A stretch of 64,000 nucleotides of DNA. It comes from Chloroflexota bacterium (lineage in GTDB: Bacteria; Chloroflexota; Anaerolineae; Anaerolineales; UBA4823). The position numbers were made by a program, and so were the translations under genes. Location of the stretch: the NCBI GenBank assembly GCA_029265355.1, contig JAJUJL010000021.1, positions 1 to 64,000 of the forward strand, given 5' to 3'. The notes under the pieces were generated by a model, which saw only the letters and a program-made list of their open reading frames with translations, ran no database searches and had not been told where the DNA came from. Positions 37,728 to 56,749 of this stretch are shown piece after piece (position 1 is the stretch's first letter; each line of letters opens with the position of its first letter).

Positions 37728-37757
37728 GTCGGAGGTAAACTGCTGCAATCCTCAAAA

Positions 37758-40720: not shown

Positions 40721-42499
40721 CTAAGGTTCCTGCAGGTCCTCCGCCGGCACCGGCGCAAGCTGCTCATCTTGGGATTCTTCCGGAACAATCAGCCCGCTGC
40801 TGGAAGCTGCCTCCCCGGGAAACAGATCGGCGCGCGCCCATAGGATAATCTTTTCCTGCCACCAGGGTTGTGCGCGATACGCCAGCCAATGCAGCACATC
40901 CGGCGGAGCGTTTCCCTGCCATTCTGGGTAGCTCCACCACACAAAATCCTGGCCGCGGTAGCTGGAAGTCAGACTGGGGGCATCTTCCGACTGGCGGGTA
41001 ATGACCACTGAGGCCGGGTTTTCTGCGCTGGCTGCTGCCACGCTGGCGAATTGCACCTGTGAGTGATTCCGTAGGGACCACCGAAGGGCGGGGGAATCGA
41101 CAGCTACCAGAACATCCAGCGATTGAGGGTCGCCGCTGCGCCACACCGCCAATTGCTCAACAGTCTGCATGAACAATTCAACATCGCCGGCGCCAGGAAC
41201 TGGCGCCCACGCGCTCCAGCGTTCATCGCTGCGCAAAAGCGCCGCGTTGGAGAGGCCTGCCAGCGTATAAATGCCCAACCCGGCAGCCAGGCCCATCGTT
41301 GCCCCCCAGCGCGCCAGGTTCCACGACCATCCCATTCCAACCAAAACGGTTGTCAACCCTCCCAGGACGAGAACGCCGCTCATCACCGCCAGGCGCAGGT
41401 AGAAAGCCTGTGTATCCAACAGGGAGTTTGCCATTCCTGCCAGGTTCAGCCACATTAATCCGATCAGTACCAGGATTAACCCTGCCTGCGAATAGGCGAT
41501 GCCGCGCGGCTCATCTTGCATGGTGAGACCTTCACTCAGCTCACCTGCCGCTAAAGCCCATAAGGGCAAGAGTAACCAAACCAGGTCGCCGCTCTGGCGG
41601 GCCGGATAAATCAACACCAGCAGCAAAGCGATCAGCAACCATACCCCCAGGAAGATGGCATGGGGTTTGTACAAACCGCGTACCACGCCAATCACACCAA
41701 ATACCAACGCCAGCGGCTGGTATGTGGCCAGGAGTATCATTAGCTTAAGCGCCGGCTGGGCAACTTGAGCCGTCCATCCCGAGAGATAAACGGGTATGGC
41801 ATTCAACCAGGCGCTCAAACCAGAGGGTTGCAGAAAAAGAAAAGTTCCACCCAACAGCACTGTGCCAGCAAATGCCAGGCCTGTCGTTCTCAGTCGGGCT
41901 GCATCGGGCAACGCCAGGAGCGCTCTGCGCAAGTCGATCCTGCCCGGAATAGCGAGCAGCACCAACACGGTTATCGTCAGCAATACCGCACCAAAAATCG
42001 CTGCTGGGCCAGAGAGCATCGCCAACCCTGCCAGCAGGCCCACCGCTGTCCACCGTCGCTGTAGCAGCATCGCCACCGCAAACAGCAACGCCACAAGCGC
42101 CAGCATTCCCGAACCCGCCAGGCGAGACTGCGAAACCAATCCAGGATCCATTGCCAATCCAAAAGCTAATATCACGGCGGCATTGCGTCCCAACTGCTGG
42201 CGGAAAAACCAGGGCAACATCACCAGGGTGCTGCCTGCCAGGGCTGGCGCTAGTCGCGCCAGGGTTTCACTGCTGCCCAAGATATTGAAAAGCAGCGCCG
42301 TGATGAAGATATACATCGGATTCGGGCCTAGAGATATCGAATGCGCCGCGCCCTGAGCAACCTGCCAGGCTTGCAGCGCCCAATCAGCCTCGAAATCAGA
42401 CAGCGGAGTGCGCCCTAAGTTGGTCAGGCGCACGAAAATTCCCAGCGCCAGCGCAGCAAAGTAGAGAATGTGTTCAATAGATATTCGCCGGTAGTTCAT
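40721..42499 (-). CDS. GT39-like multispanning membrane protein
   Basis: Encodes 592 residues with a dozen or so membrane spans. The first loop has RLTNLGRTPLSDFEADWALQ, which matches the position of the Asp-Glu motif in dolichyl-phosphate-mannose-type (GT-C) glycosyltransferases, with Asp-Phe-Glu in place of Asp-Glu. A soluble tail of ~150 residues ends in an acidic, Pro-rich stretch. It may belong with the TIGR03663-type proteins that occur beside DUF2298 genes, although the HGP tripeptide of that group is not clear (LGPNPMYI instead). Expected role: transfer of a sugar from a polyprenyl carrier on the outer face. It lies 28 bases after the DUF2298 gene. Confidence 0.72.
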   Translation of the reverse strand: MNYRRISIEHILYFAALALGIFVRLTNLGRTPLSDFEADWALQAWQVAQGAAHSISLGPNPMYIFITALLFNILGSSETLARLAPALAGSTLVMLPWFFRQQLGRNAAVILAFGLAMDPGLVSQSRLAGSGMLALVALLFAVAMLLQRRWTAVGLLAGLAMLSGPAAIFGAVLLTITVLVLLAIPGRIDLRRALLALPDAARLRTTGLAFAGTVLLGGTFLFLQPSGLSAWLNAIPVYLSGWTAQVAQPALKLMILLATYQPLALVFGVIGVVRGLYKPHAIFLGVWLLIALLLVLIYPARQSGDLVWLLLPLWALAAGELSEGLTMQDEPRGIAYSQAGLILVLIGLMWLNLAGMANSLLDTQAFYLRLAVMSGVLVLGGLTTVLVGMGWSWNLARWGATMGLAAGLGIYTLAGLSNAALLRSDERWSAWAPVPGAGDVELFMQTVEQLAVWRSGDPQSLDVLVAVDSPALRWSLRNHSQVQFASVAAASAENPASVVITRQSEDAPSLTSSYRGQDFVWWSYPEWQGNAPPDVLHWLAYRAQPWWQEKIILWARADLFPGEAASSSGLIVPEESQDEQLAPVPAEDLQEP

Positions 42500-42526
42500 G
42501 GCTGTCCCATATTATAAAATGCCGTT

Positions 42527-45301
42527 TCAGTGAGCACCGCTTCGCCAGGGAACTTCATAGATACTGACCTGCCCCTGTTCGAAGACCTTGCGCATATTTC
42601 GTTCGAATTTTGCCTCCTGGAGCGCCACGCCGCACGCGGCAGGACCATAAGCGGACCTTTCCAGGGAACCAATATACACATAGCGAATCCGGTATTGATC
42701 CAGGATGGCGCGGGCTTCCTGCCAATCGCGGGTACAGTACAGGCGCGCCAGGTCATCCTGGCGCGAGCCCATCTCCTGCCCACCGCCTCGCCACTGACTT
42801 TCATGACCAGGCCAGCCCAACACGGTCGGCTGCCCGCTGAACGCCGAAACCCGAGCAAAATCTGTGTAGCTGCCACCCACCGCCTCGCTGAGGATACCGA
42901 CTGGCGCATCTGCCAGCCAGTCGATGGCTGCCATCTCATCGGGGCGTTCACGGGCGATGAAAGCGGCGCCATCCAGCGTCCACCCGAAGGGCGGCTGGAA
43001 TCCAAAAGTGATATCCCAGGCGCGCAGAATAGTGAAGGCCATGCCCATCAGCACCAAGGCGGTCATGGCCGCTGTGAACACATTCCGCGTCCAGCCGCGC
43101 AATTCCTCCAGTAAAACGAGCGCCCCAAATGTCGCCGCCACACCCCACAGCAGCCATGCCTGGTAATAGAACTTGAAGATCGTGTTCATGCGCGTGTTGA
43201 ACAGGTCGCGCAAGAAGAAAAATTCAGGCCCGATAACCAGCAGCGTTCCCAGGGAAGCCAGCAGCAGCGCAAAAGCAGACGCAGGTTGCAAGCCTTGAGG
43301 TGGCAACAAGTTGCCGGTCATTTCCTCTCGCGTGGGGCGTAACAACGCGATCAAGAAGGCTGCCAGGAACAGGAGTGTGATCCACCCCCCTGGATTGCTA
43401 AATCGCCTCACCAGCGCGGAGCCAAACAGCTCACCGGTGGTATTTGCACCCAGGTCGCCCAGGTACAGGTCGCCCAGGCCTGGCAGCAAGCTGATCAGAA
43501 AGCCGAGCAAGAGCGAAAGCAGCCACAAGAGCAGCAGCAAGACGGCTGCTGGTTTCAAGCCGCTTCGCAGCATGCCCTGCGCCCATGCCGGCGAATCCAC
43601 AACTTTGCGCAGGTGCAGCAGATAGGCAAATAATGGCGCCAATAGCGTGGCAAACATCACCCACAGGTGCGCGCCACGGGTCGGATAGATCAAATTGGGT
43701 AGCAGGCCCCCAGCCTGTGAAGAAAACCCGAGATAAAATGGCAGGTAGAGCAGTCCCCCAAGCGCGCCCAGGAGTAAGCCCGACACCATAAAATCCCCAA
43801 TCAGTTCCCGCCAGGAGCGAGATTTGCCCTGCCATAATTGACGCAAGCCATACGCTGCGGCGAAAAGCGCTACGTAGAAAGGAAAATCCCAGGTGTTCAA
43901 AAATGCCAGTCCGCCCAAGGCTACGGCTGCCAGAAGCAGGTTGGCTTTCGACAAATCCAAATTCCGGGAGGTGCTCACTCCCGCCGCCTGGCCATCCAGG
44001 AAGACTTTGGCGCCTTGCTCCTGGATCGAGGGCAACAAGTAAACCCAGGCAGCTCCCCCCATGACGAACAAGAGCAATCCCTGGAGCAGGGAGGCTACCG
44101 ATTGGCTAACGCTACCGGAGCCGATCAGCGCCAGGCCCCCCACCGTCAGCCCCACCGCCAGCCAGGCAAGCGCCCGCCGTCGCAGTTCCAGGCGCAGCCA
44201 CAGTGAATCCCCATTTTCTCGGCTCAGAAACACATTCAGCGCCAGGGCCATCGCCAAAAATGCAAACGGCATGGCCAACACATGAGGATGCAAGTCTGCC
44301 AGAAAATAGGAAAATGCCGGAAATTCGTCGATCACCTCGCGATGCATTCCATCCAGGTTGTAATCCGAGAGCACGCGTGAGGCACGCCACCACCACCAGG
44401 CGCCGGTGCCATACGATTGCGGCAACCAGGAGTATGGTTCAGCCGGCGGAGTATTCATATCCAGGATGTTCAGCCAGGCCCAAAAGCCAGCCGGAAGCAA
44501 CCCACGAGCGTGCAACATCGCCAAAAAACCCTGGATATTGCTCACCACCAGGATCAAAAATGGCGCCAATAAAGCCCGCAGATATTGCCGATCCGCTGGC
44601 TGGGCAATTGGGCTGCCTTGCGCAGTTTTTCGGACATTCCAGGCGCTCAACAGATTATAGACGACGCTGTAAGCGCCCAAAGCGCTCAGGCTAAAGACCA
44701 ACGCCACACCCAGGTTGAACGCCACGCTTGGCAGCGTACCGGTAAATTTCGCCAGCATGGCAACCATCACATAACCAAAGTAATAGTATGAGATGGCGTA
44801 GCCGGAGAGCCACGGGTCGAAGGGTGGGAACGTTTCAGAGCGCAGGATGGCATTGATAAAGCCAATCTCCATCGGCTTCTCAGTGTGGCGAATATCAGGG
44901 TATGCAGCGCGGATGACAGCCCAGGCCACGAAAGCCGCCAGGAACAACACCTCGGTCAAGATCACCATCCGCCGCTCCTGGCGCACCCAGTTGATCATCT
45001 CGCCGCTCCCGCTGCGCAACCTTTGGAGAAGGCTCTCTGCCCCGTTGCTTGAGCGTCTATCAAGCGCCCAGAAGCTGAGGCCAGCCACCGCAGCCAGGGC
45101 AAACAGCAACCCGCCGACATCGTTGCGCAGGATACCCAGCGATGCCAGCAACCAGAAGACATACGCCCACAGCAGCAGCCCCAGCGCCCGGCTGAGAGCA
45201 TAGCCGCGATCCCTCAGCCCTGGCAGCATCCGGTAAGCCAAAGGAAACACCAGCCAACCCAGGGCTGAAACCAACACGTACCAGGTGAGAAATGCTACCA
45301 T
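42527..45301 (-). CDS. DUF2298 (Chlor_Arch_YYY) membrane protein, single-unit form
   Basis: Encodes about 924 residues with some 18-20 hydrophobic spans. The family motif is around residue 171: SGYAISYYYFGYVMVAML, preceded by EKPMEIGFINAILRSETFPP and FDPW. A second conserved part is YSWLPQSYGTGAWWWWRASR. The C-terminal soluble domain has YCTRDWQEARAILDQYRIRY. The family is known from Chloroflexi and archaea and its function has not been established; the build fits a GT-C glycosyltransferase. ATG 45301 starts one base after the stop of the 1721-residue gene. Its whole length is paralogous to the C-terminal half of that protein. Confidence 0.85.
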   Translation of the reverse strand: MVAFLTWYVLVSALGWLVFPLAYRMLPGLRDRGYALSRALGLLLWAYVFWLLASLGILRNDVGGLLFALAAVAGLSFWALDRRSSNGAESLLQRLRSGSGEMINWVRQERRMVILTEVLFLAAFVAWAVIRAAYPDIRHTEKPMEIGFINAILRSETFPPFDPWLSGYAISYYYFGYVMVAMLAKFTGTLPSVAFNLGVALVFSLSALGAYSVVYNLLSAWNVRKTAQGSPIAQPADRQYLRALLAPFLILVVSNIQGFLAMLHARGLLPAGFWAWLNILDMNTPPAEPYSWLPQSYGTGAWWWWRASRVLSDYNLDGMHREVIDEFPAFSYFLADLHPHVLAMPFAFLAMALALNVFLSRENGDSLWLRLELRRRALAWLAVGLTVGGLALIGSGSVSQSVASLLQGLLLFVMGGAAWVYLLPSIQEQGAKVFLDGQAAGVSTSRNLDLSKANLLLAAVALGGLAFLNTWDFPFYVALFAAAYGLRQLWQGKSRSWRELIGDFMVSGLLLGALGGLLYLPFYLGFSSQAGGLLPNLIYPTRGAHLWVMFATLLAPLFAYLLHLRKVVDSPAWAQGMLRSGLKPAAVLLLLLWLLSLLLGFLISLLPGLGDLYLGDLGANTTGELFGSALVRRFSNPGGWITLLFLAAFLIALLRPTREEMTGNLLPPQGLQPASAFALLLASLGTLLVIGPEFFFLRDLFNTRMNTIFKFYYQAWLLWGVAATFGALVLLEELRGWTRNVFTAAMTALVLMGMAFTILRAWDITFGFQPPFGWTLDGAAFIARERPDEMAAIDWLADAPVGILSEAVGGSYTDFARVSAFSGQPTVLGWPGHESQWRGGGQEMGSRQDDLARLYCTRDWQEARAILDQYRIRYVYIGSLERSAYGPAACGVALQEAKFERNMRKVFEQGQVSIYEVPWRSGAH

Positions 45302-45302
45302 A

Positions 45303-48300
45303 TCATGGCCCAATCACTTCATAGATCACCGTGTCGCCATCCTGGTACACGGGGCGCCACAGCACACCTTCCGCCAGGCTGAACTTCTCCAGCCCAGCGC
45401 CAGGCTGCGCCTCCAGGTTGTCTGGCGGCACCTGGCTGCCGTAATGGCCGCGTTCTAATTGCCCCAGGACAATATATCGCACATGGTACTTTCGCAAGAA
45501 AGCGCGTGCCTTTTCCCAGTCCGTCGTCAGGTAAAACGCATCCACTTCTGCGATGCGGTTGCTCACCACGCTTCCGGGCAAGACCGCGCGCTGTTGTTGC
45601 TGGTGCCATTCCCAACCCACCACTCCTGGCAGCCCAGTGTTGATCGTGTAACGCGATCCCCAGCGGTATAGATTGCGCAGGTTGGCTTCCACGATCACCG
45701 GGGAGCCTTTGATATTTTCCTGCATCCAGCGAATGGCTTTATAGTCCTGGTTTAAGTCCATGGCGCCCCAGGTCTCAGCATACTGCGAGTATTGCATGTA
45801 AGCGAGGCCGTCCAGCGTCTGCGGTGTGCGTGGATCCATGCGGTCCTTGATCTTCGCCATGCTGGCGGTGAGCGGGTAGAGCGCTGCGGAAGCGACCAGC
45901 AGCGCCAGGGCGATTTCCCAACCATACTTCAGACGCGGCGCCCAGCCCGAAATGGAGGGCCACATCCAGGCAAACGCCGCCGCGGCGCTGATCGAAAACA
46001 GCGTCCATACCTGCAAGTAGAACTTGAACACGGTGTTCATGCGTCCAATATCGCCGACCAGCACGATGGCTTCCACCATCAGCGTCAGCACCAGCCCTGT
46101 ACCCACCAGGAAGAGCACAAACCGTTTAGCATCCCGTTGACCTTGCTCTCCATCGCCGCGCAGCAATAGCACGCCCGCCCAGGCTGCCAACAGCAGCACG
46201 AACCAGGCAATGCTGACCTTGAAGTAAACCATCAGCGCCAATATCGCCAGCACCATCAGCAGCAACGCGGCATAGATGACGCCCCGGTAAGGCTCCAGTT
46301 TGCGCAGGTGGGAAAGGGGTGTGCGCGCCATCCAATCGATGCTCTCCCACGCTAACCAGGATACGATCACGAACAGAAATACACCCCAATGGGTGAGATA
46401 CGCCGAAAGCGGGGTGTGGGTGCCCGTCCACACTGCGACCTGCGTGTATCCCAGCGCATACCACCGGGCAAATGGTTGGAAGAGCAACAGCGAAAGGCCG
46501 ACCAAGGCGATCACGCTGAGACCGGCTTGCAGCAGTTTGCGATTGGTTTCTGGCAACGCGGCCAGTAACCCAAAGCGGGAGAACGGCGTCTTTTCGCCCG
46601 GGTCGCTCGGCGCGCGCAGATAGGCATACACAAGTCCCACACACCCCAACGCCAGGTAAGGCGGGAAGTCCCAGGTATTGGTGGGGCGCAGGCTACCAAT
46701 CGCCAACCCGCCCAACAAGAAGCCCAAGAGCGTATTGACTCGGTTCTGCCAGCGCGCCCGGCTGAGAACGACAGATAAGATGAAGGCCAGCGCCAGCAGC
46801 GTCAAGGGCAGCGCCATGAGATGGGCGTGCAGGTCGGCGTAGATAAACGTGAAGAATGGAAATTCGGTGATCGGTTCCACATCCCCCGGCGCTGGGATTG
46901 CCCGGCTGGGGAGCCAGTACCAATCTCCAATGCCGTACGGCAGGTCAGTCCCAGCAAGCACCTGGAAAAACCCGCGCAGCGCCCAGACGATGCGCGTTGG
47001 CAGCCGCGCGCCTTCGATCACCCCATCCGGGGCGGCCAGGCGTTGGTAGCCTTGCCAGATCATGCGGATCGTTCCCAGGTTGCCCAAAACCGCCATGCCG
47101 GCGGCAGCCCCCAGGCCGGTTAGCAGTGGCAGCCATTCTATCCTTTGTGTTGCAGGGTGGATTTTGGCGGTGGTTGCAATCTCCTTTGAACCGGTTTCAT
47201 CTACCACGTGCTCAGCAGGCGCCCGGAGCAGGGAATTTGTGTTCCTTACCGCAGCCGCCAGGTTCCACCCCGCGCTGAAAGCGCCCATGGCAATCAATGC
47301 AAAGAGGGTAGGCAGGACCAGGTTATAGGCCACCGCGGGTGTGATGCCCAGCCACTTCACCGGCACACCCACCAAAACGAAACCGTAATAGTAGTAATTC
47401 AGGTAGCCGCCGGCAAACCAGGGGTCATAGGGCGGGAAAGTTTCGCTCTTCAACACGGCGTTGAAGTAAGAGAAATCCATGGGCTTCTCGCCGCCCTTCC
47501 AGGGATGCCACAAGTCTGGATTGGCGAAGCGGATGAACAATCCCAGCAAGAAGAAAACCAGGAACAGGCTTTCGACAATCAGGATATACCGCTGCCGACC
47601 GCGCAGCGCCTCCGCCAGGCGGCGTCTTTCGCGAAACGCCAGCGCGGTTCCCAACACCGCCAGCAGCGCCACGCCCAGGGTGATGGTGTACCGGTTGAAG
47701 GGAACGCCTGCCGATCCCGCCAGCCAGACGATATACGAGAGCAGCAGCATTCCCACCAACCGCGCCAGCGGGTAGCCGTGATCGGGCAAACCTGGCAAGG
47801 CAGCATAAACAAGCGGTAGGACCAGCAAGCCGAGCAAAGTGATCGCCAGGTACCAGGCGACCACCGCCAACCCCTGCGAGCGATTGAGCAACGATTGGGG
47901 CGGGAACAGCTCGCGCCACGTGCCGCCCTGCTGCTGCTGCACCCAGTTCTTCAGCGGTAGCATCAGGTTCGCCGGGAAACTGCCCGCTCGCTTGGGGGTG
48001 ATGCGCACCACCTGGCTGAGATCTACCTGGTTCAGGATGACTGCCGCCCGCACCGGGTCGTAGTCCTGACTGCGTTGAAAGATAAAGACCTTGGGATGGT
48101 CATAAACGGTGAAAGCTTCTTCGGCGAACTGGTCGTTGATGCGCAGCGGGCCAATCGCCGGATCGGATTGAAAAACCTGCACCAGCTCGTAGCCCAGCTC
48201 TCCCTGGAACATCCCGGGCTGGGCAACGTTGTAGCACCATTGGATACTGGCGTCCAGCGGGCAGCCGAGCAGGCTGCGGTAATATTGGGTGACCAGTGGA

Positions 48301-50468
48301 AAACGCTCAGGCAGCCTGGGCAGGCTCCCCCACTGGCGATTAGAGGAGATCAGCAGATAGTCAGCCTGGTTGAGGATATTCAAGAAGCGTTGGCGCTTCT
48401 CTTCATTGTCATCGGTGTACATGTTGAAGTTCAGCCCGGGCGTGTAGATGCCGCCAAAGCCATCGAAGCCCTCGACCCGCACCGGCAGCCCGTCATCCCA
48501 GTCGCCTTCGTTTGCCAGCGCCGCGCCGCTCAGCGCAATGGCACCATTGGGCGTATCCAACCGTAGCGAGAGCGAGTACTGCGCCTCTGCGATCAAGTCA
48601 ATCGCCGGCTCCAACTTCAAAGTGTAGGATTCACCGCGCGGGTCGCTCAGGATATTGAAATTCGAGCTGAGCTGCGCCGTCGTGCTGGCCTCCGCACCGC
48701 TGATGGTTAACACCAGTAGCTTTGGGCGCGGGTCGCCAGACAGATCCACAGCATGCGCCAGGTGGATCTCTTCCAATCGCCCGGTGCGCCGGGCTGTGAA
48801 AGCTGTGGTGAACGGCTGCTCCGCGCCGATCGTCTGCCCGCTGCTGAAGGGCACCGGCTGGTTAAAGGTCCCCTCTAGGGTCTGGATATTCAGATTGATC
48901 GGCCCGGGCAAGTTCTGGTAGATCCAGCGCGACGCCTCGATGCGCGTGATTGGGCGCTGGTAAATGGTGGAGAAAGCGTAAGCCCAGGTGTAAGTCAGCA
49001 GCATGACAACACTCCCCACCAACACCGCCAGCCAGCGCAGCATTCGGCTGCTGCGCCCAGCCTGGACATTTCCAGCGAGGCCACTCAACCTCCCAGCACC
49101 CAGGTCGTACAGCGCCACTACACCCCAGGCAGCAAAAATCGCCAGGCCTGGATAGATGGGCAGTTGGTAGCGCATGGTGGGGTTGAATTGCAGCGATTGC
49201 CAGGTGAAGTAAAAGGCTGTCCAACCCCACAGCAAAGCATGGCGAAACAGCTCCTCTTTGCCAGGGCTGCGGTCAGCAAGCATGCGCCAGCCGGCCCACA
49301 CGAAAGCAGCCCAAGCCAGCATGCCAAGCGGTAAGCCCAGACCCCACAGCGTCAGATTCTGGAATGAAAACCACACCGGGCGGCGCGCCCACTGCAGCGC
49401 AGGCGGGAAATCCACGTCGCCAGCCGCCTGGTTGCGCTGCTCGCGGATATTCGCCACCCACTGCGGGTTGGGCTTGAAGCCAAAGAAGCCCGGCCCACTG
49501 AAGGCGTATGGCTGGAACAGGCGGAAGATAATCACGCTGACCACTGCAGCAAATGCCAGGTACACAAAGGCGCGCACCAGGTGCGCCTGGCGCTGATGTG
49601 GCGAGGCATGCCGGGTGCGCAGCCATTGAATGAGAAATGCCGCCGGCAACATAGCCGCCACGGGGTAGGCGCTCACCTTGGATGCCATGGCGCAGCCCAG
49701 CGCAATCCCAAACGCTGCGCTCAATCCAAAGAGCGGGTGGCGCACGAAGGGTAGAATCGCTTTCCACGAGAGCGCCTGGCTGCCGCTCGACAACTCGGAA
49801 ACATCGGGGGCGTTCCACCTGCCTGGTGAAGCGATCTCCCAGTCTTGCAGCATGACTCGCACAGCGTAGTAAATTGCCAGCCAGGTGAACAGGTTTACGA
49901 AATTATCGACCGTGAAAAAATGCGATTGTTGGATTTGCATCACCGCGGCTGCCGAGAACGCCGCTGCCAGCAGCGCTACCCTGCGATCGTACAGCCGGGC
50001 AGCAATCAAATACACCAACAGCACAATGACCAGGTCGGCCGCAGCGGACAACGGGCGCCCGACATCAGTCATCTCATTGAAACCGGAATGCCCGTAAACC
50101 CACTCGACCAGGTAACGGGCGGCGAAAACCGGCAGCGTGCCATACACATAAAAGCCGTGACCGCGGTTGTGGGGATTCATGCTGGAATTGACCGTATCGA
50201 AATACTCCCCCAGGCTCATCCAGGCTTTCCGCTCAGGTGGACAGGCGAATTCGCTGACATTTTCATCCAGGCATTTGACCGGGGAAATATCTGTACCCAC
50301 CCATACCAGGAATCGCTCGTCAGGATGCAAATACTGGTATTCGCCCCAGTCAATACCCACCCAGCGAAAATTCGCCCCTGCCAGGAGAACGACCAATAAG
50401 AGAATATCAAAAAACCAGGCTTGAAACTGCCTCTTCGGTTGGGAAACTTTTTCTTCTTCCAGGCTCAT
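45303..50468 (-). CDS. Giant fused GT39-DUF2298 membrane protein
   Basis: Encodes about 1721 residues. Residues ~15-540 are GT39-like: span, then DWGEYQYLHPDERFLVWVG with the Asp50-Glu51 pair expected to be catalytic, and FFTVDNFVNLFTWLAIYYAV. Residues ~540-720 form a beta-sandwich-like soluble insert (TFNQPVPFSSGQTIGAEQPF). Residues ~870-1721 are a full DUF2298 unit with EKPMDFSYFNAVLKSETFPP, YDPWFAGGYLNYYYYGFV near 1024 and a final soluble segment TDWEKARAFLRKYHVRYIVL. About 30 membrane spans in all. The fused build implies two sugar-transfer steps in one chain. The ATG lacks a strong ribosome binding site. Confidence 0.85.
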   Translation of the reverse strand: MSLEEEKVSQPKRQFQAWFFDILLLVVLLAGANFRWVGIDWGEYQYLHPDERFLVWVGTDISPVKCLDENVSEFACPPERKAWMSLGEYFDTVNSSMNPHNRGHGFYVYGTLPVFAARYLVEWVYGHSGFNEMTDVGRPLSAAADLVIVLLVYLIAARLYDRRVALLAAAFSAAAVMQIQQSHFFTVDNFVNLFTWLAIYYAVRVMLQDWEIASPGRWNAPDVSELSSGSQALSWKAILPFVRHPLFGLSAAFGIALGCAMASKVSAYPVAAMLPAAFLIQWLRTRHASPHQRQAHLVRAFVYLAFAAVVSVIIFRLFQPYAFSGPGFFGFKPNPQWVANIREQRNQAAGDVDFPPALQWARRPVWFSFQNLTLWGLGLPLGMLAWAAFVWAGWRMLADRSPGKEELFRHALLWGWTAFYFTWQSLQFNPTMRYQLPIYPGLAIFAAWGVVALYDLGAGRLSGLAGNVQAGRSSRMLRWLAVLVGSVVMLLTYTWAYAFSTIYQRPITRIEASRWIYQNLPGPINLNIQTLEGTFNQPVPFSSGQTIGAEQPFTTAFTARRTGRLEEIHLAHAVDLSGDPRPKLLVLTISGAEASTTAQLSSNFNILSDPRGESYTLKLEPAIDLIAEAQYSLSLRLDTPNGAIALSGAALANEGDWDDGLPVRVEGFDGFGGIYTPGLNFNMYTDDNEEKRQRFLNILNQADYLLISSNRQWGSLPRLPERFPLVTQYYRSLLGCPLDASIQWCYNVAQPGMFQGELGYELVQVFQSDPAIGPLRINDQFAEEAFTVYDHPKVFIFQRSQDYDPVRAAVILNQVDLSQVVRITPKRAGSFPANLMLPLKNWVQQQQGGTWRELFPPQSLLNRSQGLAVVAWYLAITLLGLLVLPLVYAALPGLPDHGYPLARLVGMLLLSYIVWLAGSAGVPFNRYTITLGVALLAVLGTALAFRERRRLAEALRGRQRYILIVESLFLVFFLLGLFIRFANPDLWHPWKGGEKPMDFSYFNAVLKSETFPPYDPWFAGGYLNYYYYGFVLVGVPVKWLGITPAVAYNLVLPTLFALIAMGAFSAGWNLAAAVRNTNSLLRAPAEHVVDETGSKEIATTAKIHPATQRIEWLPLLTGLGAAAGMAVLGNLGTIRMIWQGYQRLAAPDGVIEGARLPTRIVWALRGFFQVLAGTDLPYGIGDWYWLPSRAIPAPGDVEPITEFPFFTFIYADLHAHLMALPLTLLALAFILSVVLSRARWQNRVNTLLGFLLGGLAIGSLRPTNTWDFPPYLALGCVGLVYAYLRAPSDPGEKTPFSRFGLLAALPETNRKLLQAGLSVIALVGLSLLLFQPFARWYALGYTQVAVWTGTHTPLSAYLTHWGVFLFVIVSWLAWESIDWMARTPLSHLRKLEPYRGVIYAALLLMVLAILALMVYFKVSIAWFVLLLAAWAGVLLLRGDGEQGQRDAKRFVLFLVGTGLVLTLMVEAIVLVGDIGRMNTVFKFYLQVWTLFSISAAAAFAWMWPSISGWAPRLKYGWEIALALLVASAALYPLTASMAKIKDRMDPRTPQTLDGLAYMQYSQYAETWGAMDLNQDYKAIRWMQENIKGSPVIVEANLRNLYRWGSRYTINTGLPGVVGWEWHQQQQRAVLPGSVVSNRIAEVDAFYLTTDWEKARAFLRKYHVRYIVLGQLERGHYGSQVPPDNLEAQPGAGLEKFSLAEGVLWRPVYQDGDTVIYEVIGP

Positions 50469-50535
50469 CACACAGATAATCTCGCGTCGCTGGCTTCTTC
50501 TACCAGCAGGGTTTCATCATTATCCCGCCCGCAGC

Positions 50536-52824
50536 TCATTGCTCGGGCAGCACATAGAACAGGTAGAAATCGTGGTTCTCGACCTGCGATTCATACACCG
50601 TTTGCACGCCATTGGGATACACCAGGTACAGAGTCTGCAGGCCAACTTCGTCATCTGGGCGCAGCAAAAACAGCTTCGGAGCAGGAACGCTGCTCGTTTG
50701 GGCGATATTCTCGGGAAAAATTGCGTAATCCTTCAGCGGGAAACCCGCATTCATCGCCACCAGGCGCGTATCCACCCAATGCGGAAAAGCCACCACATAA
50801 GCCGAATCGGGGCTGCCAATGGTATTGGCAAAATCTCGGATGACCGCCCCCATCTCGGAGGTGTTCCAGGAATTCTGTCGGAACATGGTTGCATACTGGT
50901 TGAACACCAGATCATAATTCAGCCAGGCTGTCGCCAGCAGAAGGGTGCTCACAATCGCCCAGGCAAAGCGCCGGCTGCTGCTGCCTTTCCAGGCGTTTTC
51001 CAGCGCGCGCATCAAACCATCCAATGCCAGGGCTGCGATGAGAAATACAGGAATGTAGGCGCCTCCCATGCGGTTGAGCGCCGGGTTTTCATCTGGAAAA
51101 GCCAGGGAAAGGATGGATGGCATCTGCAGCAGCGGCACGGACAACAACAAGAACAAGTCCAGCCAATGCCGCCGACGTAGATAGCGAATGAACAACACCA
51201 TGACTCCCAGGTAAAAGAATGCGCCGCTGACAAAATCCAGCGCTGGGCGGTTGGTGAGCGACACCACCCAGATGTTGCCATCATCCCAGGCGAACATGGT
51301 CACCGCCCGCCACAGGTTATGAAAGAAAAGCGAGGCTGCATCCCCCGGTAGCGGGCGCTCCATCGTGCCAAGGCGTGAAAAAGAACGGAAGGCAAATCCT
51401 TCCGGGTTTTCCAGAGCATAGCGCAGCAAGGGCAGGAAGATGACCAGCGAGATCACCGCCAGCAAGACCAAGAAAGTGACCGTTTGTCGGCGAAAGCCGC
51501 GCGAGTGGCGATGTAACAAATAGAGGCCGACTGCCGCGACCACCACAAAGGGCAGGATGCGAATGGGTGTATAGCCGTGCAACCCAATGCCAAGCGCAGC
51601 CCCTGACAAGATGAAATCGTTGCGCCTGCCGGTGCGCAGGCCGCGCAGCAAGTAATACAAAGTAGGCGCCACAAAAAGGGGATAGAAGGGAAAGCGCAAC
51701 CCCACGCGGGAGATCACGTTAGGCCAATACGCTACACCCGCCAGGAACAGCGCCAGCAGCGCCACACGCCGCCCACCGATCTCCTTGCCCAGCAGGTAGA
51801 TGTAAGGCAGGGTCAACAAACCTGCCAGCACAGTGCCGATTTTCAAACTCAGGTGGCTGTATCCGGTGTTGAAAAGCTGGATGATCGCCGCCGTCAGGTA
51901 AAACTGCAGCGCCTCGCGCCCGGTATTGCGCGGAAAAAAGATGCGCGTTTCCCCATGCAGCACATCCCAAACATCCAGCAGTTTTTCTGCATGGTCGCTG
52001 ACCATCTCGGCAGGCACTTGCTGCAAGCGGTAAACCCGGAAGAAAATCACCACCCCCATCACCAGCAGCACCACCAACCCCCAACCGGAAAGCACATGCT
52101 GCCAGTCCGGGCTGATAACTCGCTCCCGCCAACGCGCCAGCCATGATCTGCCCTGGGGCGCATCCAACCAGAAACCGCGCACCACAAACATGACGCCGGT
52201 CAACCAGACCACCACATTGATCAGGTTGAATCGATTGCCTTCCGGCGCCAGCGGAGTCTGGCCCAGCATAGCAAAAGCTGCCAGGGAAAGCGCCGCCCCA
52301 AACAGCAGAGTTAAGGGTTTAACCTTGAGTGGATCGCGTAGGGGTTCGGCCTCCACAGGCGTCAGCCAGCGCCACTCCCTGCGCCAGGCTGCCCAGGTGA
52401 GAAACACGGCAGCCAATGCATACAAAAAAACACCCGGGCCGTACGACCGCCCTGCTCCGGGCTCCAGGGAGAACTGCGCCATCAGCGCCAATCCCGCCGC
52501 CAGCAATGCGCGCCACGGCAATCCAGCAGGCGCCTGGGCGGCGGCTTCCTCCTCAAGATGATCTTCTGCCAGCGCTTGCCACGCAGGCTGCATTGCAGCA
52601 GGCGCGCCTGTAATCGAGAGGTCTACGACGTGTGGAGTTTCAGGCGCAATTGGCAAGGGTTCTTGTTCATTTGCCAGGCTGGGGGGCAGTTTCTGCGACA
52701 CTTCGCTCGAATCATCAACTTGCCCAGATCCCTCCAATGGGGGAATTTCTGGCGCTGGGCCGCGCCAGGGCATCAGCCTGGCTTTGACGTAATCCAATAC
52801 GCTGGGCTCTTCGTTGCGATTCAT
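50536..52824 (-). CDS. GT39-like membrane glycosyltransferase with long cytoplasmic N-terminus
   Basis: Encodes 762 residues. Residues 1-100 are soluble, acidic and Pro-rich. About 12 membrane spans follow. The first big loop has RLQQVPAEMVSDHAEKLLDV, a D-x-x-E arrangement (Asp277, Glu280) like the catalytic acidic pair of GT39/PMT enzymes, and TGREALQFYLTAAIIQLF. GGRRVALLALFLAGVAYWPN and the HGYTPIRILP loop are typical of this class. A soluble C-terminal domain of ~130 residues ends the chain. The start overlaps the stop of a methyltransferase gene by 4 bases (ATGA). Acceptor and donor unknown. Confidence 0.78.
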   Translation of the reverse strand: MNRNEEPSVLDYVKARLMPWRGPAPEIPPLEGSGQVDDSSEVSQKLPPSLANEQEPLPIAPETPHVVDLSITGAPAAMQPAWQALAEDHLEEEAAAQAPAGLPWRALLAAGLALMAQFSLEPGAGRSYGPGVFLYALAAVFLTWAAWRREWRWLTPVEAEPLRDPLKVKPLTLLFGAALSLAAFAMLGQTPLAPEGNRFNLINVVVWLTGVMFVVRGFWLDAPQGRSWLARWRERVISPDWQHVLSGWGLVVLLVMGVVIFFRVYRLQQVPAEMVSDHAEKLLDVWDVLHGETRIFFPRNTGREALQFYLTAAIIQLFNTGYSHLSLKIGTVLAGLLTLPYIYLLGKEIGGRRVALLALFLAGVAYWPNVISRVGLRFPFYPLFVAPTLYYLLRGLRTGRRNDFILSGAALGIGLHGYTPIRILPFVVVAAVGLYLLHRHSRGFRRQTVTFLVLLAVISLVIFLPLLRYALENPEGFAFRSFSRLGTMERPLPGDAASLFFHNLWRAVTMFAWDDGNIWVVSLTNRPALDFVSGAFFYLGVMVLFIRYLRRRHWLDLFLLLSVPLLQMPSILSLAFPDENPALNRMGGAYIPVFLIAALALDGLMRALENAWKGSSSRRFAWAIVSTLLLATAWLNYDLVFNQYATMFRQNSWNTSEMGAVIRDFANTIGSPDSAYVVAFPHWVDTRLVAMNAGFPLKDYAIFPENIAQTSSVPAPKLFLLRPDDEVGLQTLYLVYPNGVQTVYESQVENHDFYLFYVLPEQ

Positions 52825-53552
52825 GCGATTTTTGCGGCAATGACGATCAGGCTTTCACCCAACCAAAGGGGTATGATACTCCATCCAAGAATTGCTTGCA
52901 AGCCTCCGGGCGCACCAAAGAACAGTTTTTGCAGGCGCGTCGGAATTACAGGTATGTAAGGAGCATCCCAGAAACCATCCGAGAACACCCGCCGCGGTTT
53001 CAAGCCCAGCTCAGCCAGGTAACCAAGCCACTCTGCGGGAGGCTTCAAGCTAATATGCGTCGGATCTTTATACCCCACCCAGCCTTCTTTCTTCCAGGCG
53101 CGCATCGGCGAGTCCAGGTTTGGCGTGGCGAGCAGCAGCACACCGCCTGGCGCCAGCACCCGGCTCATCTCGCTGAGCGCCTGTCTCGGCTGATGCAGAT
53201 GTTCGACGACGTGCTTGGCGATAACGATTTGGAAACTGCCAGCCGGAAACGCCCCTAAATCTTCTGCCGATGCCAGCGCAAAGCTGCCCTGCGGCACGTT
53301 GCGCTGCGCCTGCTGCAGCGCCCAGGCGTTGATATCCGTGCCATACACCTGGTAACGATCGGTCAACCAACCCAGCAGATGTCCCAAGCCACAACCCACC
53401 TCCAGGGCGCGGCCCTGGCGCGGCGCATGGTGACGTGCCAGGAGGGCATAGAAGCGGTTCGACCACCAGTACTGGCTGTATTTCTCGAAAGAAACTCGAG
53501 CATAAGCCTCGGTTTTGAAGTAAGACTCATCAAATGGATGATTGTGGTTCAA
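52821..53552 (-). CDS. SAM-dependent methyltransferase (class I)
   Basis: Encodes about 243 residues. Motif I is LEVGCGLGHLLG, followed by VYGTDINAWAL and motif IV IVIAKHVVEHLHQP, then LAPGGVLLLATPN. A hydrophobic C-terminus (SIIPLWLGESLIVIAAKIA) suggests membrane association. The start is TTG 53552 with GAGGGG 9 bases upstream; an ATG at 53630 would force a 65-base overlap with the previous gene. The substrate may be the sugar or lipid carrier made by the neighbouring glycosyltransferases. Confidence 0.85.
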   Translation of the reverse strand: MNHNHPFDESYFKTEAYARVSFEKYSQYWWSNRFYALLARHHAPRQGRALEVGCGLGHLLGWLTDRYQVYGTDINAWALQQAQRNVPQGSFALASAEDLGAFPAGSFQIVIAKHVVEHLHQPRQALSEMSRVLAPGGVLLLATPNLDSPMRAWKKEGWVGYKDPTHISLKPPAEWLGYLAELGLKPRRVFSDGFWDAPYIPVIPTRLQKLFFGAPGGLQAILGWSIIPLWLGESLIVIAAKIA

Positions 53553-53565
53553 GTCGTCTATCCCC

Positions 53566-54393
53566 TCACGCTGGTTTTCGCGCCACGTAGAACGTGAACA
53601 CACCCTGTGGGTGGGGTGCGGCTTGGGCATAGCCAGATACCAGGCGCCGGGTCAGTGCCAGGTTCCAGTGGTAAGGCGCCAAGATCCACCGTCCGGTGAG
53701 GGCATGCGGGAGCAATGTCGGCGCGCCCAGGTAGTGACCCCATTCCAAAGCGCGCATGGCTGATGGAGGAAAATAGTGCCACCAGCGCTCCAACCGGAAG
53801 CCCGCATCTTCTAACCACGCCCGCCAGACTTCCACCGGTTCAGCGTGGTGCACACGCGACATGCGGCGGAACCATTCGGTGTACGCATTTCCCAGGCCGC
53901 GAAGTCCCAGGCGTTGCAGCAGCCCAGAGATCGCCAGTTCCCTCAGGTAACCGGGGTTGGGCACACAAAACAGGAACAGCGCCCCTGGTCGCAACACACG
54001 CTGGGTTTCTGCCAGAACGCTCCGCACATGCGGAATGTGCTCCAACACCGAATTGCTCACGGCGCTGCCAAAATATTGACTGGGGAAGGGCATTTGCCCT
54101 CCGTCTCCTTGCACCAGTGAGCGGTAACCTTTCAACCGCGCTGCCTGACGAATTGGCCCAGCCCATGGATCCAGGCCCACATCCAAGGGGCGCTCGAACG
54201 TGACGCTGGCAAAGTGACCATCGCCGCAGCCAACATCCAATACAGGCGCTTGCAGCGTAAATGCCTGGTAGAAGTGCGCTTCCACAGAGCGCAAGATGGC
54301 GCGAAAGTATGGCAAGTCTCGCAGGTGCAGCCAAAGGTAATCTCTGGCGGGCGCGCCGGCATTCGACTGGTCAGAGTTTTTCGGGTCGTTCAT
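53566..54393 (-). CDS. SAM-dependent methyltransferase (class I), second
   Basis: Encodes about 275 residues. Motif I is VLDVGCGDGHFASVTF with DVGLDPWAG (acidic end of strand 2), then AVSNSVLEHIPHVRSVLAETQ and LRPGALFLFCVPN. It differs clearly from the adjacent methyltransferase, so this is not a recent duplicate. The start ATG 54393 lies 7 bases after the stop of the GT4 gene; a longer start to 54456 would overlap that gene. Likely to modify the same glycan or lipid. Confidence 0.85.
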   Translation of the reverse strand: MNDPKNSDQSNAGAPARDYLWLHLRDLPYFRAILRSVEAHFYQAFTLQAPVLDVGCGDGHFASVTFERPLDVGLDPWAGPIRQAARLKGYRSLVQGDGGQMPFPSQYFGSAVSNSVLEHIPHVRSVLAETQRVLRPGALFLFCVPNPGYLRELAISGLLQRLGLRGLGNAYTEWFRRMSRVHHAEPVEVWRAWLEDAGFRLERWWHYFPPSAMRALEWGHYLGAPTLLPHALTGRWILAPYHWNLALTRRLVSGYAQAAPHPQGVFTFYVARKPA

Positions 54394-54400
54394 GGCTGGC

Positions 54401-55660
54401 TCAGGCAGGCGGTGATGGTTTATTTTCAGGTGTCGCACCTTGCACTGCGCCGGCAAGGTCTTGTGGTCTGGAGCTGTTGTTTGACTCTTGAGCGTTCAAG
54501 CGGATCTCACCAGGGTAGATTAAACTCTCGAACAGGCTTTCATACATTTTTGCAGTTGATTGCAGAGAAAACAGAGCAGAAATATCCTGCCCTTTCCCCC
54601 GATAGTTCTGGGGGGCATCCAGTATGGCGATGATCGCCTGGGCCAGCGCCCGGGCATCGGCGGGTGGAACGATGAGACCCATGCCCGTCAGGGTCACCGG
54701 CTGACGCACACCCGGCAAATCAGAGGCAACAACTGGCGTACCGGCCATCATCGACTCGACCTGCACCAGGCCAAACGATTCGGTGCTGTTCAGGCTGGGG
54801 AGCACGGTCACATCGCATTCGTGGAAAAACGCTGACCAATCGACCGGGCTCAAATTGCCCAAGAAAGTCCAATGCTCCCCCAGGCTTTGGATCAAGGGCG
54901 CCAGGCGCTGAGCGTACTTTTCCTCGCCGAACACATTCTCGTGCTGCCCGACGAAGATCACCCGCGCTCTCGGGTACTTCTCCATCACCATCGGCAGAGC
55001 CTGCGCCAGGTACTCCACACCTTTTTCGCTCGCCAGGCGGGCTGCCATACCGATGATGCGCTGCCCAGTTTGAATGCCAGCCTTGCGCCGGAAGGCGGCT
55101 CGATCTTCGGGGCTGACCGGACTGATCTCCACCGGTGGAAGGATTGGCCTGACTTTGCCCAGGTAGCCGCGCAAAAACGCCGAATGCTGCGCATAATCCT
55201 GAGTATTGGTGACGATCACATTGGCCGCTCGCGCCGTGATGTGGTTTGCCAGGTGCGAAACCTGGTTCGCCAGCCAATGCACACCCCCCTTGGGCAACTT
55301 GAGATCGCAATGATAAGTCAGCACTACCGGCTTGCCCGCCAGCCGCGCCAGGACGCTGATCGGGGCGGCATCCAACTGCGGCAGGTGCAGATGAACGATA
55401 TCAGCCCGTCGCGCCAGGCTGATAGCCTTGAGCGCCATGCCAGGCATCAGCACACCCTTAGAAATGCGCGCCCACACAGGCAGGCGGATCACCTGCACAC
55501 CATCGCGGCTCTCCTGCAAGGGCAGATCTGGGCTGTATCTCGAGGTCAGGACGGTGACGGTGTGGCCGCGAGCTGCCAGGGCGCTCGCCATGCGCTCAGC
55601 GTAAATCGTCAAGCCCGAATAATGTGGGCGATAATAGGTCAATGCAGTGAGAATGCGCAT
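54401..55660 (-). CDS. Glycosyltransferase family 4
   Basis: Encodes 419 residues with the GT-B fold. The N-terminal Rossmann domain has YYRPHYSGLTIYAERMASAL and the second domain has GMAARLASEKGVEYLAQAL, followed by the retaining GT4 motif ESFGLVQVESMMAGTPVVA (E-x7-E). Cytosolic, using an NDP-sugar. The last ~35 residues are Asn/Ser/Pro-rich and disordered. It would build the first part of the lipid-linked glycan whose later steps use the GT39-like membrane enzymes. Confidence 0.92.
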   Translation of the reverse strand: MRILTALTYYRPHYSGLTIYAERMASALAARGHTVTVLTSRYSPDLPLQESRDGVQVIRLPVWARISKGVLMPGMALKAISLARRADIVHLHLPQLDAAPISVLARLAGKPVVLTYHCDLKLPKGGVHWLANQVSHLANHITARAANVIVTNTQDYAQHSAFLRGYLGKVRPILPPVEISPVSPEDRAAFRRKAGIQTGQRIIGMAARLASEKGVEYLAQALPMVMEKYPRARVIFVGQHENVFGEEKYAQRLAPLIQSLGEHWTFLGNLSPVDWSAFFHECDVTVLPSLNSTESFGLVQVESMMAGTPVVASDLPGVRQPVTLTGMGLIVPPADARALAQAIIAILDAPQNYRGKGQDISALFSLQSTAKMYESLFESLIYPGEIRLNAQESNNSSRPQDLAGAVQGATPENKPSPPA

Positions 55661-55675
55661 CGAGCATTTCCCGGC

Positions 55676-56749
55676 TCAACCCGCTGGCGGATCTGAGCTT
55701 TCCAGAGGTTCTTGGCTGCGTCGGCGCAGGCTGCCCACCCTGCGGTACAGATCGCCTAAGGACTGACCATCTTTTACAAGGCCAATGGCGCCCAATACAC
55801 CCGTGACCACGATTTGAATCAAGTGGGCGGTGAAGGCCATTGCCAGGGCAGTGGATACATCCAATCCAAATGCCGACAATGCACCCACCACCGCAGCTTC
55901 AAAAACACCCACTGCTGCTGGTGAAGAAGGCGCAGCGATTCCCAACGCCGCCACTGCCAATGTAAAAGAAGACCACAGCCATTCGCCTTGCGGGAAAAAC
56001 GCCCGCAGCAGCACATAGTACTGCACCAGCGCCACCAACCAGTTAACAAACGCCCAGGCAATCGCACTGAAAAAAAAGACCGGGTCTGTCAAGACCGATA
56101 GCCCATGCAATCCAGAAGCCACAGCCTGCCTGCCTGCTTTGCTCAGCCAGGGCCAATGCTTCGCCATCCTGACGAACCACCCTTCCACCTGAGCGGGGTT
56201 GCGCGCCATCCAGTATAAGATCACAAAAACCAGCACAACCAGAGCAATTGTGCTGACAGCTACAGTTGCCTCGCGCGCCGCGCCTACCACGAAAGGCAAA
56301 ATCGCCAATAGCAAACTGGCTGCGAAGATTAAGTCCAGAATACGTTCAATGAAAATGCTGGAGACAGCCTCCCAAAATTTTACCGGTGCTTTGCGGCTCA
56401 CCAGGTAGGCGCGGCCCAATTCTCCCAGGCGGAACGGCAGCAAATTATTCAAAAGATAACCTGTATTCACCGTCCAGAACAGGGCGCCCACACCGGCCTT
56501 CTTGCGCAGCAACGCATGCCACAGATAACTGCGCACCACCAGCCAACACAACGTCGTGACGCCTCCCAAGAGAATCAAGCGGTAATCTGCGGCCTGCATG
56601 GCGCTCACCAGCTTGCCCAGATCGGCAAAATAGAGCACAACGCCCAAAGCAGCCGCACTGACCAGCCCTCCAAAGAGCAGGCTGGTGTAGTCGGTGCGGG
56701 TGTTTTCCCTCTTTGTCGCATCTGGAGGTAACACGGCTGCTCTACTCAT
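55676..56749 (-). CDS. PF03706 (LPG-synthase-TM/UPF0104) membrane protein
   Basis: Encodes 357 residues with eight or nine spans. Pattern: [11 protein letters not shown]-like start ([19 protein letters not shown]), [26 protein letters not shown] and [30 protein letters not shown]. The family includes the membrane part of lysylphosphatidylglycerol synthase and the archaeal AglD-associated proteins; many act near glycolipids, perhaps as flippases, and no aminoacyl-transfer domain is present here. Start overlaps the lepA stop by 8 bases. Confidence 0.85.

Follow-up and report, generated by a model that had tools for sequence, protein, structure and literature searches.

A predicted GT-C fold for DUF2298 and a probable extracytoplasmic glycan assembly block in a Chloroflexota bacterium

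We analysed a 64,000-nucleotide stretch of DNA (the window) from a Chloroflexota bacterium (assembly GCA_029265355.1, contig JAJUJL010000021.1, positions 1-64,000). The block at 40721-56749 contains eight open genes, all on the minus strand. It probably specifies an assembly line for an extracytoplasmic glycan, with five units of glycosyltransferase type C (GT-C), among them two units of the DUF2298 family. This reading draws on a predicted fold, a loop-charge bias, residue conservation and gene linkage. The gene families of the block are already described; what is new is the fold assignment for DUF2298 and the tandem architecture in which it occurs.

Predicted fold of DUF2298

The block proteins were searched with Pfam and NCBIfam profiles and judged against curated cut-offs. 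The two DUF2298 units are the solo protein of 928 amino acids (aa) at 42527-45313, minus strand (PF10060 359.1 bits, TIGR03662 479 bits), and the C-terminal half of a 1722-aa fusion, 45303-47897, minus strand (PF10060 398.7 bits at residues 910-1492, TIGR03662 515.7 bits). Both exceed the cut-offs of 27.8 bits for PF10060 and 300.25 bits for TIGR03662, and the fused and solo profiles match each other at 100% (E 1e-113). The solo gene more probably starts at an ATG around position 45301 than at the listed codon.

The solo protein was modelled with AlphaFold2 from an alignment (A2) of the window protein and 76 of the best 80 relative loci; three loci truncated at contig ends (L058, L104, L109) and a 580-aa fragment (L076) were omitted. 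The model has a mean predicted local distance difference test score (pLDDT) of 89.4 and a predicted template modelling score (pTM) of 0.91. In a Foldseek search of the PDB the first ranks are taken by the C-mannosyltransferase DPY19 (E 7.9e-6), the arabinosyltransferase AftA (1.3e-4) and archaeal AglB (1.4e-3). When the best 1000 chains from Foldseek were re-examined with a second structural aligner, yeast STT3 came first (Z 14.0, 471 residues, 7.0 Å), followed by ALG12 (13.6), AftA (12.7) and DPY19 (12.6). The preliminary description of this region had staked its reading on DUF2298 models having a GT-C fold, and ranks 1-40 (Z 14.0-7.8) are all GT-C proteins, their parts or complexes containing one; rank 41 has Z 5.7. 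The drop from 7.8 to 5.7 and the uniformity of the list argue against a chance match.

The C-terminal outer domain (residues 784-922 of the model) separately matches the C-terminal domain of AglB (3vu0_A, Z 10.2, 119 residues, 3.0 Å). A passage of PMC10154233 describes the core of this 'luminal dome' as conserved in other GT-C enzymes. Such an outer alpha/beta dome, which not every GT-C enzyme has, is present in the DUF2298 model. Taken together, these comparisons support a predicted GT-C fold for DUF2298. The claim rests on structure prediction, as sequence profiles give no firm link.

Conserved residues and topology of DUF2298

Conservation was assessed in 174 Chloroflexota DUF2298 units together with the window one, of which 170-175 have a letter at each site; percentages are rounded. 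Position 145 carries E in 99% of the units and otherwise D (all 170 units with a letter have E or D), and E/D149 is kept in 99%. The residues R313, E330, D340, H342, H344 and K714 are each present in 99% of units, and R708, N710, W720 and E885 in 100%. The DUF2298 protein of a Halarchaeum plasmid carries the corresponding stretches EKFLDF, LPPEDFWFAG, YYYGG, EFPFF, DLHAH, RLNTVFK and LER. E145, E330, D340, H342, H344, R708 and K714 are the likely active-site residues.

The mean charges of loops were calculated over 77 sequences. Loops 30-40 (3.06 K+R, 0.88 D+E) and 86-113 (4.27, 1.74) are positive, and loops 138-178 (2.95, 4.42) and 270-342 (6.09, 9.38) are acidic. By the positive-inside rule this bias places the N-terminus, E145 and D340-H344 outside. 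R708 and K714 precede the last two helices. From the helix lists of the model, three additional membrane helices appear to precede the GT-C core.

A number of observations weigh against reading DUF2298 as a GT-C transferase and the block as an assembly line. Only DPY19 and AftA have E below 0.001 in the Foldseek list, the superposition is loose (TM-score 0.26-0.30 by query length, root-mean-square deviation 16-18 Å), and proton-pumping pyrophosphatases come fifth and sixth (E 0.009-0.011, probability 0.23-0.28). The top Z of 14 is also the typical best value that the aligner note gives for five mostly helical test models having no clear Foldseek match. The DUF2298 profile has no solid match among PDB sequences (best E 0.24), the solo profile matches those of the PMT_2-type GT-C units at 2.9% or less, and the fused-unit profile matches the Agl23-like profile at 69.7% over 202 columns, which is not firm. 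As to motifs, PMC6801728 lists for GT-C enzymes DxD, ExE or DD in the outer loop shortly after the first helix and, in the outer loop belonging to the last cluster of helices, an R or K that precedes a P (Rx4-14P). The acidic residues of DUF2298 are spaced ExxxE/D, unlike DxD or ExE, and no P occurs within 14 residues after R708 in the window protein. Further, the roles of the GT4 enzyme, the methyltransferases and the PF03706 protein of the block rest on gene position. Finally, a GT-C fold alone does not demonstrate transferase activity: passages of PMC11182771 describe that Agl23 of Haloarcula hispanica, which belongs to TIGR03663 (PMT_2-like), acts in proteoliposomes, once purified, as a flippase for lipid-linked oligosaccharide, and that Agl23 in yeast suppresses the loss of Rft1.

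The 1722-aa fusion and the other GT-C units

The gene for the 1722-aa protein joins two GT-C units, which brings the block to five such units in four consecutive genes; two of the five were modelled, and the others were placed by family or profile match. The N-terminal half of the fusion (47898-50471, minus strand, PF13231 30.6 bits) is a PMT_2-type unit with an HPDE motif, followed by an outer domain. It was modelled from 50 sequences (alignment A3: the window protein and 49 fusions longer than 1380 aa having both ends), with pLDDT 91.2 and pTM 0.91. All 32 Foldseek matches below E 0.001 are GT-C proteins or complexes containing one, and the same is true of all 50 rows listed by the second aligner, which include AglB (3waj, Z 28.0), STT3 (8agc, 27.1), ArnT (5f15, 26.9) and Pmt4 (9e61, 26.7). 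After the first helix H49, P50, D51 and E52 are each present in 45/46 sequences. R434 is present in 46/46, and P441 stands behind it in 96%, which agrees with Rx4-14P of the motif list in PMC6801728. The predicted fold, the DE motif after the first helix and the arginine-proline pair thus assign the N-half to the GT-C/PMT_2 type.

The model of the N-half shows a beta-rich region in its outer part. For this region, approximately residues 520-660 of the fusion, the Foldseek matches are to carbohydrate-binding or viral fibre domains; they are all weak and rank under the GT-C rows. The profile of the N-half has a single match among PDB sequences (E 0.49).

Profile comparison joins the N-half, the 762-aa enzyme encoded upstream of the fusion and the 592-aa protein encoded downstream of the solo gene at 93.7-97.1%, the link between the N-half and the 762-aa enzyme being 97.1%. 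The fused DUF2298 unit matches the 762-aa enzyme at only 0.5%. An apparent 95.7% link between the fused DUF2298 unit and the N-half covers 20 columns and was rejected, as it arises only from the stretch that the two fragments share. The 762-aa enzyme (50536-52824, minus strand, PF13231 48.8 bits) is a PMT_2-type protein with the motif SDHAEK, where D277 and E280 are present in 39/39 aligned sequences. The fifth unit is the 592-aa protein (40721-42499, minus strand), PMT_2-like with PF13231 at 26.7 bits (cut-off 26.1) and TIGR03663 at 54.3 bits (cut-off 126.25).

Longer tandems were found elsewhere in the phylum. In five regions (L115, L119, L120, L122 and L128) from two other families (f24 and f60), frames of 2498-2863 aa contain a PMT_2-type GT-C unit together with two tandem DUF2298 units that were placed by profile hits. 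These long frames adjoin a solo DUF2298 gene, and in L119 the frames overlap. Short DUF2298 frames also occur, fused in L072 (1179 aa) and solo in L076 (580 aa), possibly due to assembly or sequencing breaks. With its N-terminus outside and a three-helix prefix, a DUF2298 unit could be joined to the end of the outer domain of a preceding GT-C unit, as in the 1722-aa protein.

Conservation of the gene set

Conservation of gene order was estimated in the best 80 relative loci, using those with enough flank: 53/80 in which over 9 kb precede the solo gene, and 62/80 in which over 3.5 kb follow it; the fusion was counted if it occurred anywhere in the locus. The fusion accompanies the solo DUF2298 gene in 45/53 loci. 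Upstream of the solo gene, the same 53 loci contain the 762-aa enzyme in 36 cases, the methyltransferase 53566-54456 in 34, the GT4 enzyme in 30, the methyltransferase 52821-53630 in 15 and the PF03706 gene in eight. The last count is low in part because this gene is the farthest upstream and is limited by the available flanks. Downstream, an Agl23-like gene is found in 52/62 loci, starting less than 400 bases from the end of the solo gene in 48/62.

A wider sample was formed by 19 usable regions in 18 genomes selected by strong DUF2298 matches, 16 of these regions coming from other classes; counts were made by eye. Fused and solo DUF2298 genes are adjacent or one gene apart in 11/19. These counts define a core consisting of the fusion, the solo DUF2298 gene and the Agl23-like gene, the remaining genes being less constant. 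The earlier claim that the whole set is conserved together thus holds for this core, which is syntenic in Chloroflexota, and not to the same degree for the PF03706 gene and the two methyltransferases.

It may be asked whether the genes stay together merely because they lie in a conserved chromosome region (tlyA-lepA ... cmk), so that the block is not one pathway. The neighbours are indeed conserved too, cytidylate kinase being found downstream in 39/62 testable loci; the best 80 relatives belong mostly to one class, judging by their titles; and promoter-like sites show no excess (four, against 6.9 in shuffled sequences). However, none of the 19 wider regions has the cytidylate kinase profile and three have that of LepA, yet the DUF2298 pair keeps its linkage in 11, and an Agl23-like gene is present in nine and PF03706 in six. 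We consider this explanation highly improbable.

DUF2298 is matched in 204/301 genomes of the phylum, in 201/301 above the cut-off. Two control archaea also have it, Haloferax volcanii and Methanosarcina acetivorans. A tblastn search of plasmids for archaeal DUF2298 produced one record, the Halarchaeum plasmid. The features listed beside DUF2298 in its gene table, which is incomplete, include no glycosyltransferase or flippase; genes of sugar metabolism and one for a polysaccharide deacetylase are among them. This archaeal gene (L113:2-1840 and L114; Halarchaeum sp. plasmid pCBA1220-01) crosses the origin of the record and is missing from the plasmid gene table.

DUF2298 and Agl23

TIGR03663, the family of Agl23, is matched in 248/301 genomes of the phylum, in 191 above the cut-off. 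Strict thresholds of our own choosing drop eight genomes with weak DUF2298 and 58 with weak TIGR03663 matches. At these thresholds, and uncorrected for kinship, 196 of the 301 genomes have DUF2298 and 190 have TIGR03663; 187 have both, nine only DUF2298, three only Agl23, and 102 neither; given the uncorrected kinship, the value of a Fisher test on these counts is not to be read as a probability. Proximity was counted among the matches listed, which cover 104 and 140 genomes, 72 of them in both sets. In 39/72 a TIGR03663 start lies less than 12 kb from DUF2298, in five the two are far apart on the same contig, and in 28 they are on different contigs. The family text of TIGR03663 describes its members as often encoded close to TIGR03662.

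The window gene 40721-42499 encodes a diverged Agl23 paralogue, below the TIGR03663 cut-off. The family text names a DE and an HGP motif along with two arginine residues; HHDE and HGP were seen in the canonical members considered here. In the family of the window protein, D or E stands at position 35 in 37/46 sequences and E37 in 43/46, giving DxE where canonical members have DE; R82 and R126 are present in 46/46. The HGP motif was not seen in this alignment. Since a DxE-type motif is retained, the protein need not have lost activity. The canonical Agl23 of the same genome (L142:9903-13316, contig C5 at about 177.9-181.3 kb) has TIGR03663 at 228 bits and lies on a contig other than that of the block. 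It contains NHL repeats, and both long canonical proteins that were scanned, this one and that of L125, match NHL-repeat models; the canonical-like proteins of L129 and L132 (585-590 aa) are too short for this part. Canonical and diverged genes stand side by side in L117, L123, L124 and L125. The six canonical sequences group in a single clade (support 1.0) of a midpoint-rooted tree that also includes the window protein and 34 others; the canonical label was assigned from a simple motif, which fails to pick up L129, for example. The main text of PMC8993221 does not mention Agl23.

The main rival reading of these data is that DUF2298 and Agl23-family proteins form a flippase system for lipid-linked sugars, the GT-C fold serving to bind and move the carrier. 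It would agree with the strong co-occurrence and frequent proximity of the two families, and with the flipping by Haloarcula Agl23 cited above. We find it doubtful, as the near-invariant acidic and histidine residues in the outer loops of DUF2298 are more readily explained by an active site than by a route of transport, and the Agl23 relative in the window is a diverged paralogue whose canonical counterpart lies on another contig.

Pathway context and proposed role

Elsewhere in the genome there are a DPMS-like gene (match to 5mlz, E 5.4e-30) and an ArnC/GtrB-like gene (E 1.4e-61). These polyprenyl-phosphate sugar synthases could feed the GT-C enzymes of the block. A single GtrA/DPMS-TM match was found at C5:170289-170687, some 7 kb away from the gene for the canonical Agl23. 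Genome-wide there are 34 matches to PF00535 and seven to PF03706. A genome search revealed no further DUF2298 beyond the window.

No STT3 (PF02516) match was found in the genome, and STT3 as its ligase was ruled out on this ground. Among 151 genomes of the phylum, 17 have STT3 above the cut-off. Strong matches occur in only one of them, G082 (93.1, 85.3 and 68.7 bits), which has no DUF2298 match; the rest are at 38.7 bits or below and often cover short stretches. This distribution could favour the idea that DUF2298 is an oligosaccharyltransferase-like enzyme of bacteria lacking STT3 and attaches a glycan assembled beforehand to secreted proteins. Its closest folds include STT3/AglB and DPY19. 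In a passage of PMC12488501, densities at T66 and T145 in the archaellin of the Chloroflexota bacterium Litorilinea are interpreted as likely O-glycans; relatives from Caldilineaceae have both fused and solo DUF2298. On the other hand, both control archaea with DUF2298 also have STT3, and the Z values of STT3, ALG12, AftA and DPY19 are so close (14.0-12.6) that the fold does not choose the reaction. We regard this idea as quite unlikely.

The scheme that we prefer, the glycan assembly line, would operate as follows. Firstly, cytosolic GT2 and GT4 enzymes would load sugars on a polyprenyl phosphate carrier, the donor synthases being encoded elsewhere in the genome. Secondly, flippases, for which the PF03706 and Agl23-family proteins are candidates, would turn the lipid-linked sugars to the outer leaflet. 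Finally, the outer-face GT-C enzymes, including both DUF2298 units, would pass the sugars sequentially to a growing surface glycan or glycoprotein. Catalysis, donor, acceptor and the order of steps are what we infer here. A lipid-linked sugar pathway had been proposed in the preliminary description; the predicted fold of DUF2298, the synteny of the core and the presence of the synthases speak for it, and the part given there to PF03706 is weakened by the few loci in which this gene is linked and by its multiple homologues in the genome.

A bolder extension, which we think unlikely, is that DUF2298 is a branch of the GT-C enzymes hidden from sequence comparison, shared by Chloroflexota and archaea and acting with the Agl23 carrier translocase in outer-face glycosylation; that it would be the protein-glycan ligase of Chloroflexota; and that the tandem fusions of two or three units would be processive multi-step glycan synthases.

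DUF2298 occurs in about two thirds of the sampled Chloroflexota genomes and in two control archaea under no named function. Its predicted fold, the near-invariant outer-face residues and a steady partner of known biochemistry, Agl23, make it a testable enzyme family. It may give a handle on the sugar decoration of these bacteria, perhaps of their archaella.

Other genes of the block and its neighbourhood

Upstream of the GT-C genes, all on the minus strand, are genes for two class I methyltransferases (52821-53630, PF08241 77.8 bits; 53566-54456, PF08241 58 bits), a GT4 glycosyltransferase of 419 aa (54401-55660, PF00534 111.2 bits) and a flippase-like membrane protein of 357 aa (55676-56749, PF03706 143.2 bits with cut-off 33.4, TIGR00374 62.3 bits with cut-off 43.2). 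The last is a PF03706 member by curated score, with putative flippase activity. For the methyltransferase 53566-54456 the listed start is a TTG; a more probable one is the ATG around position 54393. Taking all starts as given, adjacent genes share 4-65 bases or are separated by 15-64 bases. Both the layout of eight minus-strand genes, overlapping or less than 70 bases apart, and their families agree with the preliminary description: all the families named there and searched for here (PF10060/DUF2298, GT39 and PF03706) were matched, 'GT39' being PMT_2 (PF13231). Its count of two GT39-like and two DUF2298 proteins should be amended, as the N-half of the fusion adds a PMT_2 unit, giving the total of five, and the last of these is related to Agl23.

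The block is continuous with its flanks. A gene that we take to be lepA overlaps its 5' end by eight bases, and the cytidylate kinase gene (PF02224) lies 39 bases downstream; both the lepA name and that of tlyA are our assumption from the look of the sequences. A terminator scan was uninformative (35 candidates against 21.7 expected, mostly within genes). After the cytidylate kinase, on the same strand, there are three consecutive genes for PlsC-type acyltransferases (PF01553, 37767-39993). A multi-domain sensor histidine kinase of 1109 aa (dCache, HAMP, GAF, PAS, HisKA, HATPase) is encoded at 34419-37748, downstream of the block; it has tblastn matches in 28 of the best 80 relatives, some of them weak, and these are probably generic.

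Comparison with known systems

By curated score both DUF2298 units are members of TIGR03662 (Chlor_Arch_YYY) and PF10060. As the preliminary description had stated for DUF2298, neither library names a function in these entries; the GT-C fold is added here, its novelty being judged by entry names. TIGR03662 is described with two architectures and a range of Chloroflexota and archaea. The open-licence literature of PMC contains no mention of TIGR03662, PF10060, Chlor_Arch_YYY, TIGR03663 or 'flippase activity-associated protein', a weak form of absence; DUF2298 is named in two papers there, in one of them only as an entry of a gene table.

STT3, AglB and PglB (PF02516) are similar to both modelled units in that they provide top structural matches, the C-terminal outer domain included. 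Unlike them, the block proteins have neither PF02516 nor a sequence-profile match: no PF02516 match was found at E 0.01 for the block proteins P0011 and P0002, and P0002 matches TIGR04154 only at 18.8 bits against a cut-off of 450. The WWDYG motif, characteristic of STT3, AglB and PglB, is not in P0011. DUF2298 further differs from these proteins in its three extra N-terminal helices and in the motifs EKPM[E/D] and DLHxH.

DPY19, ALG12/ALG9, AftA, ArnT and Pmt4 share with DUF2298 the GT-C fold and an acidic residue soon after the first core helix, for example Glu71 of DPY19 in a passage of PMC10154233. To Agl23 of Haloarcula hispanica (TIGR03663) the window gene 40721-42499 is a distant relative; it scores under the cut-off, carries a DxE-type motif where canonical members have HHDE, and lacks HGP. 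Canonical members of TIGR03663, in turn, stand near DUF2298 in many Chloroflexota.

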